Of a stretch of 64,000 nucleotides of DNA, positions 13,994 to 22,282 are shown in pieces. The stretch lies in NCBI GenBank assembly GCA_902780305.1, contig CACZFB010000006.1:1-64000 (forward strand), in the 5' to 3' direction. The stretch's first letter is position 1. Each line of letters begins with the position of its first letter. The notes below the pieces were generated by a model. That model saw only the letters and a list, made by a program, of their open reading frames with translations. It was not told where the DNA came from and ran no database searches. The stretch is from an uncultured Coriobacteriaceae bacterium (GTDB lineage: Bacteria; Actinomycetota; Coriobacteriia; Coriobacteriales; Atopobiaceae). Made by a program: the position numbers and the translations under genes.

Positions 13994-14009
13994 GAAACAG
14001 CCCCGAAAC
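13994..14009 (+). promoter_or_regulatory. Possible GlnR-type box (AC-n9-AC) before the GS-like gene
   Basis: GAAAC, six bases, GAAAC reproduces the spacing of actinobacterial GlnR sites (GTnAC-n6-GAAAC). A near match, GTGCC, follows at another six bases. It lies 56-71 bp upstream of the GS-like start. The motif is short and could occur by chance; MtrA-type regulators use related sites. Confidence 0.35.
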
Positions 14010-14064: not shown

Positions 14065-15390
14065 ATGAGCAACGACAGAAACGTGGACTTCGTGTTGCGC
14101 ACCATCGAGAAGCGCGACATTCGCTTTGTGCGCCTGTGGTTTACCGACGTACTGGGAAACCTCAAGTCCTTCTCCATATCGCCGGCGGAGCTCGAGGAGT
14201 CGTTTGAGGAGGGCATCGGGTTCGACGGCTCGGCCGTCGCGGGGTTCGTGCCACTCGAGGAGTCGGACATGCTGGCCTTCCCCGACGCCGAGACGTTCCA
14301 GATCCTGCCGTGGCGGCCGAGCAGCAGCGGCGTGGCGCGCATCTTCTGCAAGATCTGCACGCCCGATGGCCAGCTGTTCTCGGGCGACCCGCGCTCGTGT
14401 TTGGGCCGCGTGCTCGCGAACGCCGAGGCCAAGGGGTATGTGCCCAACGTGGGGCCCAAGCTGGAGTACTTCTACTTTGGCGACGACCGCGAGCCCATTC
14501 CGGTCGACCACGCGGGCTACTTCGACCTCACGCCCTACGACTCGGCGCGTGACATCCGACGCTCCACCACGCTCATGCTGGAGAAGATGTCCATTCCCGT
14601 GCAGTACTCCTATCATTCCAACGCGCCCTCGCAAAACGGCATCGACCTGCGCTACTGCGAGGCCTTGAGCTGTGCCGACAACATTATGACGGCTCGGCTG
14701 GTAATCAAGCAGGAGGCCAACGAGCAGGGGCTGTTCGCCTCGTTTATGCCCAAGCCGCTGGCGGGCTGCTCGGGCTCGGGCATGTTCTTGTGCCAGTCGC
14801 TGTTCGACCTCGACGGGGACAACCTGTTTTGGGGGACCGAGGACTACCACCTGTCGAAGCTCGCCCACCACTACATCGCGGGCATCCTGCGCTATGCGCC
14901 CGAGTTCACGCTTGTCACCAATCCCACGGTCAACTCGTACAAGCGGCTGCTGCCCAACGGCGAGGTGCCGGTGTACACCACGTGGGGCCGCAAGAACCGC
15001 TCGGCGCTCGTGCGCATTCCCGCCCACAAGCCGGGCAAGCACTCCTCGGCCCGCATCGAGTTGCGCAACCCCGACCCCACGGCCAACCCGTACCTCGCGT
15101 TTGCGGCAACCATCGCCGCTGGCCTCAAGGGCATCGAGGACGAGCTGCCGCTGCCGGTGGAGTACACGGGCAAGGACGTCACCGACGCACATATGGTGAG
15201 CATGGGCCGCACGCACCTGCCGCGCACGCTGGGCGAGGCCATCGAGGTGTTCGAGCAGAGCGAGCTGATGCGCAAGACGTTGGGTGACCACATTTGCGAC
15301 TACCTCCTGGCCGAGAAGCGCATCGAGTGGAACGACTACTGCACGACCATCACCGACTGGGAGAAGTCGCACTACTATGCGGGGTTCTAG
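14065..15390 (+). CDS. Glutamine synthetase type I-like protein with degraded active site
   Basis: The 441-residue product aligns along the full GSI fold: a beta-grasp N-terminus with [11 protein letters not shown], then [21 protein letters not shown] and [16 protein letters not shown]. Several residues that build the metal and ammonium sites of canonical GS differ. The PEPE motif reads GPKLEYF (Lys132 replaces the first Glu), HHE reads YHS (Ser185), GQxE reads SQNG (Gly192) and GSGMH reads GSGMF (Phe241). Glu332 in RIE is kept. Normal glutamine synthesis is therefore doubtful; a regulatory or different ligase role is possible. The ATG follows GGGAGGGGCA. Confidence 0.85.
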
Positions 15391-15616: not shown

Positions 15617-16525
15617 ATGAAGAAGAGCAGGACTATTGGACTGGCCGGCGCCTTCGCCTGCCTCTGCGCGCTCGTGCTCGTGCTTGCCGGCTGTGGCGGC
15701 AGCAAGCCGGCCGAGAACACCGCCGACAACAAGGCTGCCGATGCCACCACTGAGTCTTCCGCGGGCGGCTGGTACGCTTCCGCGAAGGCGGACGCCAACG
15801 GGTTCAAGCTCGTTGAGGAGGGCACCCTCATCGGTGTGTCCGACATGGCCTATCCGCCGCTCGAGTCCGTGGTCGAGGGCAAGTCCGACGAGTATGAGGG
15901 CTTCGAGATCGACCTCACCACCGAGGTTGCCAAGCGCTGCGGCCTCAACATGAAGTGGCTCAGCCCCATGAAGTTCGACACCATCATCCCGCTCATCAAG
16001 CAGGGTGGCAAGGCCGACGTGGGCGTCTCGTCCTTTACCATCAACGACGAGCGCAAGAAGGAGATTGACTTCACCGAGTCCTACATCGACTCCAATCAAG
16101 CCATCGTCATGAAGCAGGGCTCCGACAAGAAGGGCGCCTCCGATACCGAGACCATCGAGAAGCTCAACGCCAAGGACATCACGGTGTGCGTGCAGCAGGG
16201 AACCACCGGCGAGGAGTGGGTGCAGGAGAACCTCCCCAACGCCGAGTGCAAGCCGCTTGACAACGCCATCGACTGCCTGCAGAACCTGCAGTCCGACAAG
16301 TGCCAGGCCGTCGTGGCCGACCTGCCCTGCATGGCCTTCTACTGCAAGGACGCCTTCAAGGACTTTGAGGTCGCCGTGCAGATTCCCACCGGCGAGTCCT
16401 ACGGCATCGTGGTCTCCAAGGAGAACCCCGAGCTCACCAAGGCCATGAACAAGGCCCTCCAGGACATGAAGGCCGATGGCACCATCGACAAGATCATGGA
16501 GAAGTGGTTCGGTGGCAACCTCTAG
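15617..16525 (+). CDS. Amino-acid ABC transporter substrate-binding lipoprotein (first of two)
   Basis: The 302-residue product has a lipoprotein signal (lipobox LAGC, Cys26), a Ser/Thr/Ala linker and a periplasmic-binding fold of family 3 (SBP_bac_3). Typical segments are GVSDMAYPPLE, YEGFEIDLTTEVAKR, ADVGVSSFTIN and PTGESYGIVVSKENPELT. Polar amino acids or cystine are the likely ligands, although the exact ligand cannot be read off. Two internal Cys pairs (near CVQQGTTG/AEC and CLQN/DKC) could form disulfides. ATG is preceded by GAGAAGGGA. It heads the importer operon, and a hairpin at 16560-16586 separates it from the next gene. Confidence 0.88.
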   Translation: MKKSRTIGLAGAFACLCALVLVLAGCGGSKPAENTADNKAADATTESSAGGWYASAKADANGFKLVEEGTLIGVSDMAYPPLESVVEGKSDEYEGFEIDLTTEVAKRCGLNMKWLSPMKFDTIIPLIKQGGKADVGVSSFTINDERKKEIDFTESYIDSNQAIVMKQGSDKKGASDTETIEKLNAKDITVCVQQGTTGEEWVQENLPNAECKPLDNAIDCLQNLQSDKCQAVVADLPCMAFYCKDAFKDFEVAVQIPTGESYGIVVSKENPELTKAMNKALQDMKADGTIDKIMEKWFGGNL

Positions 16526-16631: not shown

Positions 16632-17525
16632 ATGCACAACATGTCTCGCCGTTCTTTTATCAAAGGCGGTAGTCTGCTCGCCGGCATGGGGGCAATCGCG
16701 CTCGTCGGATGTGGCGGGGGTCAGCAACCGGCCGCCGATGCGGGCTCTGCCGATGCCGCTGCCGCCGATGCCAGCACCATCATGCTGGTAACCGAGGGGA
16801 AGCTCACCTGCATCTCCAACATGTACTTCCCGCCCTTCGAGTTCATGGACGAGAAGACTGGCGAGGCTAAGGGCTTCGACATCGACCTGTCCCGCGAGCT
16901 TGCCAAGCACATGGGCTTGGAGGCGAACTGGACCAAGGAGAGCAACATGGGCTTCGACACCCTCGTGCCCACCATCTCGTCGGTCGACTACGCGGGTGGC
17001 AAGGCAACGGGCAAGGCCGACATCGCCATCGCGGGCATGACCATTACCGACAAGCGCAAGCAGGAGGTTGACATGTCCGACCCCTACCTCGACTCCAACC
17101 AGTCGCTGGTGCTGCGCAAGGACTCCGAGGAGACGCTCGAGACGCTCAACGCCGAGGGCAAGAAGATTGCGGTGCAGGACGGCACCACCGGCGAGGAGTG
17201 GGCGCGCGAGAACCTTACCGTGGCCGACGCCGCCAAGGGCATCGTGAAGCTCGACGACATCATCAACGCGATGAACGGCCTCAACTCCAAGACCTACGAT
17301 GCGGTGATCACCGACCTTCCGGTGGCCAAGTACCAGATCGAGACCGAGAAGAACTACGCCGACCTCAAGGTGGCCGAGGCCATTCCCACCGGCGAGCAGT
17401 ACGGCATTGCCGTCTCGAAGAAGAACCCCGCCCTGACGGCAGCCATAAACAAGGCGCTCAAGGAGATGGTGGAGGACGGCACCATGAAGAAGCTGCAGGT
17501 CACGTGGTTCGGTTCCGAGGTGTAA
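16632..17525 (+). CDS. Amino-acid ABC transporter substrate-binding lipoprotein (second of two)
   Basis: The 297-residue product begins MSRRSFIKGG, a twin-arginine-like signal, and has a lipobox ALVGC (Cys27). The SBP_bac_3 fold follows: ISNMYFPPFEFMD, KGFDIDLSRELAKHMG, ADIAIAGMTIT, DGTTGEEWA and PTGEQYGIAVSKKNPALT. It resembles its upstream neighbour but carries a Tat-like rather than a plain Sec signal and has a shorter linker. It lies 3 bp before the permease gene. AGGGAGGAAACC precedes the ATG. Confidence 0.88.
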   Translation: MHNMSRRSFIKGGSLLAGMGAIALVGCGGGQQPAADAGSADAAAADASTIMLVTEGKLTCISNMYFPPFEFMDEKTGEAKGFDIDLSRELAKHMGLEANWTKESNMGFDTLVPTISSVDYAGGKATGKADIAIAGMTITDKRKQEVDMSDPYLDSNQSLVLRKDSEETLETLNAEGKKIAVQDGTTGEEWARENLTVADAAKGIVKLDDIINAMNGLNSKTYDAVITDLPVAKYQIETEKNYADLKVAEAIPTGEQYGIAVSKKNPALTAAINKALKEMVEDGTMKKLQVTWFGSEV

Positions 17526-17528
17526 GGC

Positions 17529-18926
17529 ATGCACGCAGGTTCTAGCAACAGACTCAAGCGCCTGGTTGCCGCCTTCGCCGCGCTGCTGGTTGCCCTGGTG
17601 CTCGTGCCCTCGCAGGCCCAGGCGCTCACCACCGAGAAGGCCACGGCGCGTCCCAACGAGGACGGCGGCTCGGGCGTCATCGGCGGCATTCCCACGCGCC
17701 TTACCTGGGAGGGTGTCGTCGAGGACGGCGAGTCGATTACCTCGGTGACCCTCACGCTCCCCAATGGTGCCTCGTTCGACAACAGCACCACCAAGGTGAC
17801 GGTGCTCGACAACCTCACCCGCATTCCCAACGATGCGACGGCAACCCCATCGGGCAACACCATCGCCGTAAAGCTCTCCGACCCGGCGAAGGCAGGCTAC
17901 AAGCTGCGTCTGGAAATCGAGGACATGACCTTTCCCTCCGAGGGTGGCGACGTCGTCGTAAATGGTTCGTACGAGAGCGCGGGTAAGACGCAGGAACTCG
18001 CTCCCTCCAAGCCCATCGCCACCATTGCAAACACCTGGCTGCAGCAGATGGTGAGCTTTTTGGACGCACAACCGTGGGTGCAGGCCTGGAACTCCAACCA
18101 GTTCCTGGGCATGTTCCTCAAGCCCCAGCTCATCCTCACGTCGCTCTTCTCGCTGTTCCCCGGCTGGCTCGTGTGTCTGGGCATCGTCGTCGTGGCGTAT
18201 CCGTTTGCCATCCTGCTCGGCCTCGTCTTCGCCCTCATGAAGCTGAGCAAGTTTCGGGTGGTGCGCGCCATTGCCGTGGTGTACATCAACGTCCTGCGCG
18301 GCACCCCGCTGTTCCTGCAGATCTACATCATGTTCTTCGGCCTGCCCATGATGAACATAAACATCGACAACAACGTGCTGGGCGTCATCGTAATGGCCAT
18401 CAACTCGTCCGCGTACTTGGCCGAGATCTTCCGCGCCGGCATCGAGTCGATCCCGACCGGTCAGTACGAGGCCGCGGCGAGTCTGGGCATGGGTCGACTC
18501 ATGACCATGGTAAACATCATCCTGCCGCAGACCGTGCGTCGCGTCATCCCCACCGTTACCAGTGACTTTATTATGGCGTTCAAGGACACCTCGCTGCTCT
18601 CGTCGGTGGGCGTCATGGAGCTCATGATGTTCTCCAAGAACCTCACCTCGGTTACGGGCAACATGACTCCCTACGTCACGGCGGCCATCTTCTACCTCAT
18701 CGTGACGCTGCCGCTGATCAAGGTGGTAACGATCATCGAGAAGCGCATCGCGCGTTCCGAGCGTGGCGGCGGCCCCAGGCCCAAGGCCAAGGTGGCCGAT
18801 GCCAAGCAGGACGACGAGCAGACGCCCGCCGAGCCGGAAGGTGCCGAGGCAACACTGGCATCGGCGCTCAGCGCGCCGTTTAGGGCGGGAACGAGCGTGT
18901 TTGGAGGTGTGGCCGATGTTCGATAA
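17529..18926 (+). CDS. Amino-acid ABC transporter permease with an N-terminal extracytoplasmic domain
   Basis: The 465-residue product starts with a signal sequence ending about residue 32 (VPSQAQA) and a beta-rich secreted-type domain to about residue 160. A standard HisMQ-type permease then follows at about 190-410. The EAA loop is visible as [24 protein letters not shown], and [16 protein letters not shown] is typical of polar amino-acid permeases. A Pro/Glu/Ala-rich cytoplasmic tail closes it. Usual permeases of this class are about 220 residues, so this one is about twice as long. The extra domain could bind or hand over substrate. It overlaps the ATPase gene by 11 bp. Confidence 0.85.
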
Positions 18927-19797
18927 GGCAAAGGCTAAGGTCGAGGCCAGGCGCGAGGCGCACCGCGTGCCGCCCGCGCTCGACGCAGAGCAGGCGGCGA
19001 GCGAGGCCCACGAGCGCGACAAGGGGCTCACCAAGCACCACTTCGAGCCGCACGAGCATCCCTGCGTGCGCATCGAGCACCTCATGAAGACCTTCGACGG
19101 CGAGACGCAGGTGCTCACCGACGTCAATCTCACGGTGTGGCCCGGCGAGGTCGTGTGCGTGCTCGGCCCCTCGGGTTCGGGCAAGTCCACCATGCTGCGC
19201 TGCATCAACCTGCTCGAGACGCCCACGGCGGGCCACATCCTCATCGAGGACAAGGAGATCACGGGGCACCTGGTAACCAAGGAGGTCAACAAGCTGCGGC
19301 AGAACCTGGGCATGGTGTTCCAGAGCTTCAACCTCTTTCCCAACCTCACTGCCAAGGGCAACGTGATGATTGGCCAGACCAAGGTGCTCAAGAAGTCCAA
19401 GGCCGAGGCCGAGGCAGAGGCGCTCAAGCAGCTTGATGCCGTGGGCCTGCTCGACCGCGCCGACTTCAAGCCGGCGCAGCTCAGCGGTGGCCAACAGCAG
19501 CGCGTTGCCATCGCGCGTGCCGTGGCCATGCATCCCGACATCTTGCTGTTCGACGAGCCGACGTCGGCGCTCGATCCCGAGCTCGTGCGCGGCGTCCTCG
19601 ACGTCATGCGCGACCTGGCCGAGAACGGCGGCATGACCATGATCGTGGTTACGCACGAGATGGGCTTCGCGCGCGAGGTCGCCGACCGCGTGGTGTTCAT
19701 GGAGGGCGGCGTCGTCGTGGAACAGGGCACGCCCGAAATGGTGTTCGACAACCCCCAGAATCCGCGCACCGCGCAGTTCCTGGGCAGCATCGGCTAG
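18916..19797 (+). CDS. Amino-acid ABC transporter ATP-binding protein
   Basis: The 293-residue product has an unusual 45-residue charged N-terminal extension, then a GlnQ/HisP-type ATPase. It contains Walker [10 protein letters not shown], the Q-loop in [13 protein letters not shown], signature [14 protein letters not shown], Walker [15 protein letters not shown] and the switch His in VVTHEMGFA. It energises import through the permease just upstream. The ATG at 18916 is used because TTGGAGGTG precedes it; the frame is open back to 18763. A palindrome with a T-run follows its stop by 5 bp. Confidence 0.93.
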
Positions 19798-19990: not shown

Positions 19991-20665
19991 ATGCACCACA
20001 AAAACATTCTGCTTCTCTCACGATCTTCACGCCATCACGAGCGTATGCGCGAGCTGTCGCACTCACTGGACGTCTCCATAGCGCTCGCGTTTCCCGATAC
20101 GTTCTCGCAGGCCATCTCCTCCGGCCATGAGTTCGACCTCATCATTCTGGACACGGCAGGACTCGACGAGGACACGCTCAACGCGGTCGACTCCTACGTG
20201 GCCGAGAACGGCTTTATTCCCATGCTCATGGTTCAGGACGAGGAGCGCCTGGGCGCCCTGCGCATGCCGGTTCAGGGTCGTAACGACTTTATTCTTGCCT
20301 CCGCTGGTGCCGCCGAGTTCGAGATGCGCAGCAAGCTGCTGCTGTGGCCGGGGGAGGAGAGTGCCCCGGCGGACATCGTTACCGTGGACAACATGACCAT
20401 AAACCTCGCCACGTACCAGGTATATATTGACGACGAGCCGGTGGACCTCACGCTTATGGAGTACTCGCTCCTTTCGTTTTTGGCCACCCATCCGTCGCGC
20501 GCCTACTCGCGCGAGACGCTGCTGCATCGCGTATGGGGCTTTGAGTACTGTGGTGGCACGCGCACCGTGGACGTGCACATCCGTCGCGTGCGTTCCAAGG
20601 TTGGCCCACAGGTGGCGGCGCACATCGTTACGGTTCGCGGCGTGGGCTACCTGTTTAAGCTCTAG
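19991..20665 (+). CDS. Orphan OmpR-family regulator with degenerate receiver, GlnR-like
   Basis: The 224-residue product has an N-terminal flavodoxin-like receiver and a C-terminal winged helix (about residues 130-224). The winged helix contains LTLMEYSLLSFLATHP, VWGFEYCGGTRTVDVHI and IVTVRGVGYLF. The receiver keeps one Asp in IILDTAG but lacks the acidic pair at its start (LLLSRSS instead of VDDE) and the late Lys, so ordinary phosphorylation is unlikely. The GGTRTVDVH wing and an unphosphorylated receiver are typical of actinobacterial GlnR. MtrA-like proteins share the wing, so the call is tentative. No histidine kinase is nearby. The start could also be the ATG at 19967; neither has a strong ribosome site. 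Confidence 0.7.
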   Translation: MHHKNILLLSRSSRHHERMRELSHSLDVSIALAFPDTFSQAISSGHEFDLIILDTAGLDEDTLNAVDSYVAENGFIPMLMVQDEERLGALRMPVQGRNDFILASAGAAEFEMRSKLLLWPGEESAPADIVTVDNMTINLATYQVYIDDEPVDLTLMEYSLLSFLATHPSRAYSRETLLHRVWGFEYCGGTRTVDVHIRRVRSKVGPQVAAHIVTVRGVGYLFKL

Positions 20666-20818: not shown

Positions 20819-22282
20819 ATGACCACAGGCAACAACACGACACCTCCCGTTCCGGGCTCGCAGGGCAGCGGGCAGGAGGATCTTGACAGGACGACGCGTA
20901 GGCGCAGGGTGCGGCCGGCACAACCCGCATGGCCGGACGAGCCGGCGCCAAGAATGACCTACGATCTGCAGCCCGAGCCTTCCCAGCAGCCCAAGCAGGG
21001 GTCTGGCATGTGGAAGGGCGTTGTGGGCGGTGCCGTTGCCGGCGCTGCGGTGTCGGCGGCCCTGGTGGCCGTGCTCATGGGCACCGGCGTGCTGGCCGCA
21101 CGGCCTGCCGCAACGCGCGCGACGTCGGACTCCGCCGCCGGCCAGACCATTAGCCTCTCGACCAGTCAGGACGCGACGGTGGCTCAGGCCGTGGCGGCCA
21201 AGTGCCTTCCCTCGGTCGTCTCGGTGTACGTGACCACCGCCGAGGGCGAGGGCATCGGCTCGGGCGTCGTGCTGGACACCGACGGCAACATCATTACCAA
21301 CTGGCACGTTGCGGGCGACGCCGAGAGCATCTCGGTTACCATCGAGGGTCAGAGTTACGATGCCACGCTGGTGGGCGGTGACGCCTCGAGCGACGTTGCG
21401 GTGATTCGAGCCGACCTGAACGGAGCAAAGGTCACGCCCATGGAGATTGGTGACTCGTCGGCGCTCGTAGTGGGCGACTGGGTGATGACCCTGGGCAGCC
21501 CGCTTGGCCTGGACCAGTCCGCCTCCTCGGGCATCGTCTCGGCCCTGTACCGCAACACGCTTATGACAGGGTCCACCGGTAACACCATCTATACCAACCT
21601 GATTCAGGTGGACGCGGCCATCAACGGCGGCAACTCCGGCGGCGCGCTGGTAAACGATGAGGGCAAGCTCGTGGGCATCAGCACGCTCTACTCGAACGCC
21701 GCGGGCATGGAGTCGTTCTCGGGCATCGGCTTCGCGATTCCCGGCAACTATGCCGTGGAGATCGCCAACAAGGTGATTGCCGGTGAGCAGGTAACCCATG
21801 CGTACATGGGCGTTTCGTGTGCCACGGTAAACGCGCAGAACGCCCAGGCCAACCACCTCTCGGTAAATCAGGGCGCCTACGTGTCGGAGGTGGCCGACGA
21901 CAGTCCCGCCGCCAAGGCCGGCATCGAGAAGGGCGACATCGTTACCAAGATCGGCTCGCACGACGTGACCTCGGCCGACGGCCTCATTCTGGCCGTGCGC
22001 TCCTATGCGGTGGGCGACGAGGTGGACGTGACGTACGTGCGTGGCAACGACGAGCACACCACCAAGGTGACGCTGGGCTCCGACGAGGCGCTTCAGGCGC
22101 AGCAGGAGGAGGAGCGCAAGCAGCAGGAGGAGCAGTACCAGGACCTGCAGCGGCAATACGAGGAGTACCTCAACCAGCGCCAGAACCAGCAGCAGCAAAC
22201 GTGGCCTTGGGACTCGTACAGCATGCCCTGGGACACATGGGACCTCGACGTTAACGGCACGGGCAATCCCCTCACGCGATAG
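20819..22282 (+). CDS. HtrA/DegP-type trypsin-like serine protease with PDZ domain
   Basis: The 487-residue product has a cytoplasmic Pro/Arg-rich N-terminus, one membrane segment at about residues 67-93, and a protease domain outside with triad His163 (ITNWHV), Asp192 (SSDVAVI) and Ser273 (GGNSGGAL). A PDZ domain follows at about 313-410 (YVSEVADDSPAAKAGIEKGD). A Gln/Glu-rich helical tail of about 65 residues ends in a Trp-rich segment. It is a surface quality-control protease of the HtrA/PepD type. AAGGAAAGAAGG precedes the ATG; an earlier in-frame ATG at 20783 lacks a site. Confidence 0.92.
   Translation: MTTGNNTTPPVPGSQGSGQEDLDRTTRRRRVRPAQPAWPDEPAPRMTYDLQPEPSQQPKQGSGMWKGVVGGAVAGAAVSAALVAVLMGTGVLAARPAATRATSDSAAGQTISLSTSQDATVAQAVAAKCLPSVVSVYVTTAEGEGIGSGVVLDTDGNIITNWHVAGDAESISVTIEGQSYDATLVGGDASSDVAVIRADLNGAKVTPMEIGDSSALVVGDWVMTLGSPLGLDQSASSGIVSALYRNTLMTGSTGNTIYTNLIQVDAAINGGNSGGALVNDEGKLVGISTLYSNAAGMESFSGIGFAIPGNYAVEIANKVIAGEQVTHAYMGVSCATVNAQNAQANHLSVNQGAYVSEVADDSPAAKAGIEKGDIVTKIGSHDVTSADGLILAVRSYAVGDEVDVTYVRGNDEHTTKVTLGSDEALQAQQEEERKQQEEQYQDLQRQYEEYLNQRQNQQQQTWPWDSYSMPWDTWDLDVNGTGNPLTR

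Follow-up and report, generated by a model that had tools for sequence, protein, structure and literature searches.

A glutamine synthetase fold without its catalytic metal sites is encoded in one operon with an orphan GlnR: a proposed nitrogen sensor of Atopobiaceae and Collinsella

Introduction

What can a glutamine synthetase (GS) do once the residues that hold its catalytic metals are gone? The question arises from a gene of an uncultured bacterium of the Atopobiaceae, found in a stretch of 64,000 nucleotides that was analysed as a whole and is called the window here. An initial annotation, made from the DNA letters, had noticed a GS-fold reading frame in which GSGMF and other altered motifs stand where the family motifs are expected, and it left the choice between a pseudoenzyme, possibly regulatory, and a ligase with another substrate. 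That a GS fold can exist without GS activity is known from lengsin, a vertebrate lens protein. For a bacterial pseudo-GS, or for GlnR in Collinsella, we found no description in the open-licence literature. The new finding reported here is that this type I enzyme homologue (GSI) has a partner, the transcriptional regulator GlnR.

Results

Gene and fold

The altered motifs are present in an open reading frame of 441 amino acids with a ribosome-site-like GGGAGGGGCAATG start (Table 1). Its product matched both Pfam domains of GS, PF03951 and PF00120 (E 1e-101 and 3e-27), and comprises the beta-grasp N domain and the catalytic domain of the GS fold. Its score against TIGR00653, the curated GlnA equivalog, remained below the cut-off (409.8 vs 429.15 bits). 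An AlphaFold2 model computed from a 56-row alignment had a pLDDT of 87.9 and a pTM of 0.90, and the best PDB match of this model in Foldseek was an intact GS, that of M. mazei (8tfk; TM 0.94, ~44% identity). On the strength of this pTM and this TM, the GS fold of the modelled protein is intact. A distant sequence match was 2j9i, which we take to be a relative of lengsin. An antisense frame over the gene had nothing in its support and was set aside, since long antisense frames are common in the G+C-rich DNA of this window.

Table 1. Features of the pseudo-GS operon and its surroundings (window positions)
Feature	Position	Strand	Remarks
Predicted GlnR box, GAAAC-n6-GAAAC	13994..14009	+	55 bp before the pseudo-GS start codon
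Pseudo-GS	14065..15390	+	GSI fold; n1 and n2 metal sites destroyed
Substrate-binding lipoprotein 1 of ABC importer (SBP_bac_3)	15617..16525	+	amino acids
Substrate-binding lipoprotein 2 of ABC importer (SBP_bac_3)	16632..17525	+	amino acids
Permease of amino-acid ABC importer	17529..18926	+	extra N-terminal domain of ~190 aa
ATPase of amino-acid ABC importer	18916..19797	+	GlnQ-like
GlnR	19991..20665	+	orphan, OmpR-type; atypical receiver, non-phosphorylatable-looking
HtrA-like protease	20819..22282	+	conserved neighbour

Active site

The window protein was aligned with M. mazei GS (8s59) and about 180 relatives. Positions are given in Salmonella numbering, and we take the metal and substrate sites to have the roles known from established GSI structures. 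The alignment agreed with the initial annotation on the four losses it had named, E129 (now K132), E212 (S185), E220 (G192) and H269 (F241), and on the retention of E131 as Glu134 and of Glu332. All four replacements stood, but their number had been understated: the active-site histidines H210 and H271 are changed to Y183 and C243, and E207 to Q180. Residues D50, E131, Y179, S273, R321, E327, R339, R344, E357 (E332) and R359 (R334) are unchanged; the E-flap glutamate and the substrate arginines were retained. Each metal site lacks two of its three ligands: n1 (E131, E212, E220) keeps E131, with Ser and Gly at the two other positions, and n2 (E129, H269, E357) keeps E357, with Lys and Phe at the others. 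We strongly infer from these replacements that catalysis has been lost in the window protein.

Some further positions matter for the comparison with known systems. The position of Bacillus Arg62 is P63 in the window protein. The equivalent of Bacillus Glu304, E300, is kept here and lost in the family of Collinsella. The position of Asn264 is occupied by Ser236 in the window protein and by Pro in 15 of 47 sequences of its family.

Glutamine supply

The genome that contains the window (3.19 Mb, 98.8% complete) was searched for a second GSI. The intact glnA whose presence the initial annotation had wanted checked was absent, as was any other second GSI; the genome holds instead two GSIII (GlnN) genes with all motifs intact (L002 on G000:C43 and L003 on G000:C8). 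Most members of the family have one GSIII copy. GSIII was present in 245 of 249 Coriobacteriales genomes, including families with a canonical GSI. Loss of GSI catalysis was therefore tolerable, and the intact motifs suggest that the separate GSIII is probably the source of glutamine.

Spread, origin and selection

The replacements extend far beyond the window. E212, E220, H269 and H210 were all replaced in 58/58 sequences (a set with at least one duplicate, the gene of G013) from two families, which judging from named relatives are the Atopobiaceae, to which the window belongs, and the family of Collinsella. The same four residues were kept in 41/41 sequences of the other Coriobacteriales families. 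In the alignment with GSI enzymes and Coriobacteriia relatives that had been proposed as a check, the sister families retained the canonical residues, and the altered ones marked out a single clade. Since all congeneric sequences have the same replacements, a sequencing or alignment accident was rejected, and a private change of one genome was ruled out as well.

The kinds of replacement follow a pattern. E212 became Ser or Ala (54/58), E220 Gly or Ala (53/58), H269 Phe or Tyr (53/58) and H210 Tyr or Phe (58/58), that is small, small, aromatic and aromatic. No acidic residue replaced E212 in 57 of the 58 sequences, and none replaced E220 or H269 in any. Replacements of such set kinds suggest that the pocket has been remodelled and is constrained, not decaying. 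In a tree built without the active-site columns, in which 35 affected rows were used, the affected sequences formed one clade (SH-aLRT 100, stem 0.42). One origin therefore suffices, which supports a single loss of the metal sites in the common ancestor of the Atopobiaceae and the Coriobacteriaceae (Collinsella). Within the genus the median dN/dS was 0.078, indicative of purifying selection; 102 of 104 genomes of the family retained a GSI match, and the reading frames were intact among the members examined. Taken together, conservation, intact frames and dN/dS ruled out a pseudogene or a sequencing error, and proteins of the window type are best described as putative pseudoenzymes, old and constrained.

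A few other GSI of Coriobacteriales (L040 from Slackia, L183, L176 and L033) had lost E129 and/or E357 of the n2 site while keeping E212, E220 and H269. They may mark another way, independent of the first, in which a GS has gone dead.

The GlnR partner

The initial annotation had placed a polar amino-acid importer and a GlnR-like regulator next to the gene, and both indeed lie downstream of it. The best PDB sequence matches of the regulator were 8hig, 8hih and 8hml, GlnR structures of S. erythraea and M. tuberculosis. Its match to PF21695, the GlnR-type N-terminal domain, reached 22.3 bits (cut-off 27), and this domain was matched at E 0.001 in 4 of 16 orthologues. The acidic pair of the receiver is lost and Response_reg was matched in 0/16 orthologues; the receiver looks unfit for phosphorylation. 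The protein ends at its winged helix (OmpR-type wHTH) and has no C-tail.

Wherever a Coriobacteriales locus had enough flank, GSI was almost always followed by GlnR, be the GSI canonical or dead, and this arrangement was found in almost all families of the order. We regard the glnA-glnR operon as ancestral in Coriobacteriales. Among five actinobacteria from outside the order, no GlnR neighbour of GSI was found in the 10 kb flanks scanned. In the window's family, GSI and GlnR are mostly separated by the genes of an amino-acid ABC importer. The permease of the window carries a domain of ~190 aa, with a weak match to DUF2808, in front of the usual permease domain.

Both genes were present in 235 of the 249 Coriobacteriales genomes, GSI alone in 2, GlnR alone in 0 and neither in 12 (4 of these 12 hold a divergent or marginal GS match only, scored as absent). 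The 12 genomes without both belong to 12 different genera. Since the genes are usually adjacent and one deletion may remove both, the p-value of this co-occurrence (Fisher, ~1e-18) overstates independence. In one genome (G017), GSI and GlnR lay on different contigs and both were kept, which makes one unlinked pair. A mirror-tree comparison was not discriminating, as the distance correlation of GS and GlnR (0.79) was hardly above that with HtrA (0.74). At nearly all loci of the two pseudo-GS families, GlnR is followed by an HtrA-like protease, which was not seen at the three canonical loci that have long flanks (L150-L152).

The window's genome yielded no match to PII (PF00543). Within the family PII is patchy, being absent from at least 17 sampled genomes (the window's and at least 16 others) and present in 19. 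Nearly all of the PII-less genomes other than the window's retain the GSI-GlnR pair.

The GlnR box

The box upstream of the pseudo-GS gene is the sole GAAAC-n6-GAAAC site within the 64 kb window and matches the published GlnR boxes (gTnAc-n6-GaAAc; GAAAC-n6-GAAAC). With the strict pattern G[AT]AAC-n6-G[AT]AAC, a predicted box was found upstream of the dead GS in 35/46 and 7/11 loci of the two families, where shuffling led to expected counts of 0.05 and 0.01, respectively. Across the window's genome the strict pattern was not enriched (5 sites vs 15 for the reversed pattern); GlnR therefore seems to regulate few promoters. Among 16 congeners, a consistent site was found at the promoter of the pseudo-GS alone, and glnR itself had a box in two species. 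A regulon that includes GSIII was rejected, as neither GSIII gene had a box upstream, even with a looser pattern. Loci L210 (G000:C8:84915) and L239 (G013), from two congeners, had a box-like site ~40-60 bp upstream of a gene that resembles murT (lipid II amidation); with two species concerned, we make no claim for murT as a GlnR target.

Discussion

Starting from the observed fold, residue losses, single origin, purifying selection, operon, GlnR box and co-occurrence, we propose that the pseudo-GS serves as a sensor. That it is kept as a ligand-binding partner of GlnR is the best explanation of the data as a whole, and we give it about an even chance. A pseudoenzyme with a regulatory role, one of the options of the initial annotation, is thus the favoured one, in view of the lost metal ligands, the intact GSIII, the operon, the box and the co-occurrence with GlnR. 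We hold with somewhat less conviction, and as a tentative idea, that GlnR takes its nitrogen input from the GS-fold protein of the same operon, which in Atopobiaceae and Collinsella would be a pure receptor replacing phosphorylation and PII.

The mechanism could run as follows. The common ancestor of Atopobiaceae and Coriobacteriaceae would have been the one point at which GSI lost its catalytic metal sites, and GSI would have been retained for the sake of a non-catalytic job. The operon is probably controlled by its own orphan OmpR-type GlnR through the box. The remodelled pocket may bind a small nitrogen metabolite; glutamate or glutamine are the foremost candidates, since the arginines that bind carboxylates have been preserved. 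In one ligand state the pseudo-GS would bind GlnR and switch it; the GlnR receiver seems unable to take phosphate, and the pseudo-GS would supply the switch. The outcome would be a tuning of the operon, with its amino-acid importer, at the level of expression. Both the ligand binding and the contact with GlnR are proposals.

The main rival to this sensor model holds that the pseudo-GS is a non-catalytic GlnR target, which binds an amino acid or a protein, for example to modulate GSIII or to serve the importer, and that GlnR merely regulates its gene. The box and the operon position fit a regulated gene, the importer stands between GSI and GlnR in the window's family, and GSIII is encoded in almost all of these genomes. 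Moreover, the association of GS with GlnR is older than the loss of catalysis and could therefore simply reflect GlnR regulating its neighbour. We consider this reading less likely than the sensor model. It leaves unexplained why GlnR was never kept without GSI (in none of the 12 genomes lacking GSI) and why the strict box recurs at the pseudo-GS operon alone. No special tie to GSIII was seen either, because GSIII also occurs beside canonical GSI.

The second option of the initial annotation, an active ligase, is improbable. The protein would here be a gamma-glutamyl ligase for another amine, with an altered metal arrangement, descended from a polyamine ligase of the GlnA2 type. GlnA2 of S. 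coelicolor is an active gamma-glutamylpolyamine synthetase in which Asn264 is changed to Pro (PMC8998196). The closest outside relatives of the Coriobacteriales proteins are actinobacterial GSI that carry this Pro; they are probably GlnA2 orthologues, an identification for which their gene neighbours gave no decision. E131, E357, D50 and several arginines of the ATP and glutamate sites are kept in the window protein, too. However, GS-like ligases for other amines reportedly retain the metal sites, as GlnA2 does together with the sites for ATP and glutamate (PMC8998196). The window protein has lost two of three ligands per metal site, and acidic replacements are next to absent among the 58 sequences.

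Residual GS activity, that is glutamine synthesis at a low rate beside GSIII, is more improbable still. The fold, D50, E131, E327, E357 and the arginines would be at hand for it in the window protein, but both metal sites are destroyed, E327 is lost as well in the Collinsella family, the score fails the GlnA equivalog cut-off and GSIII is intact. A pseudogene that lost its function recently and is now decaying would account for the lost catalytic residues and has virtually no chance of being correct, refuted as it is by intact frames, a dN/dS of ~0.08, one ancient origin and retention in nearly all genomes of the family.

Genes annotated as glnA in Collinsella, Olsenella and relatives very probably do not encode glutamine synthetases, a point of consequence for metabolic models of common gut bacteria. 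Should the proposed link between pseudo-GS and GlnR hold, it would be a natural example of an enzyme of which the sensing half alone is left, and it would offer a concrete candidate for the signal of actinobacterial GlnR.

Comparison with known systems

The window protein resembles GSI enzymes, including archaeal and Firmicute GSI-alpha (M. mazei, B. subtilis), in the fold over its whole length, in both Pfam domains and in D50, E131, E357, R321, R339, R344 and R359. It differs from them in the absence of E129, E212, E220, H269, H210 and H271 and in a score under that of the GlnA equivalog. GlnA2 shares its change of Asn264 to Pro with the actinobacterial GSI nearest to those of Coriobacteriales; the window protein, unlike GlnA2, has Ser236 at this position and lost metal sites. 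From lengsin it differs in being bacterial, in stemming from an unrelated event and in its context.

In Bacillus, the glutamine-inhibited GS binds a MerR-type GlnR (PMC9249791). As in the GS-GlnR/TnrA systems of Bacilli, the genes of GS and regulator share an operon here. In Bacilli, however, an active GS does the sensing for GlnR, whereas the GS here looks dead, and the C-tail of the MerR-type GlnR docks in the GS active site, whereas the GlnR here is OmpR-type without such a tail. The Arg62/Glu304 pair of glutamine feedback is not found either (P63 in the window protein, E300 lost in the Collinsella family). Docking of the Bacillus mode was rejected for the window GlnR, as it cannot apply to a GlnR without C-tail and a GS without Arg62. 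With E327 lost, the Collinsella family has not conserved the Bacillus way of sensing glutamine.

The input signal of actinobacterial GlnR has been described as unknown (PMC10704036). The GlnR of the window is like these proteins in its closest PDB sequences, its atypical receiver and its box, and unlike them it is paired with GSI in an operon.
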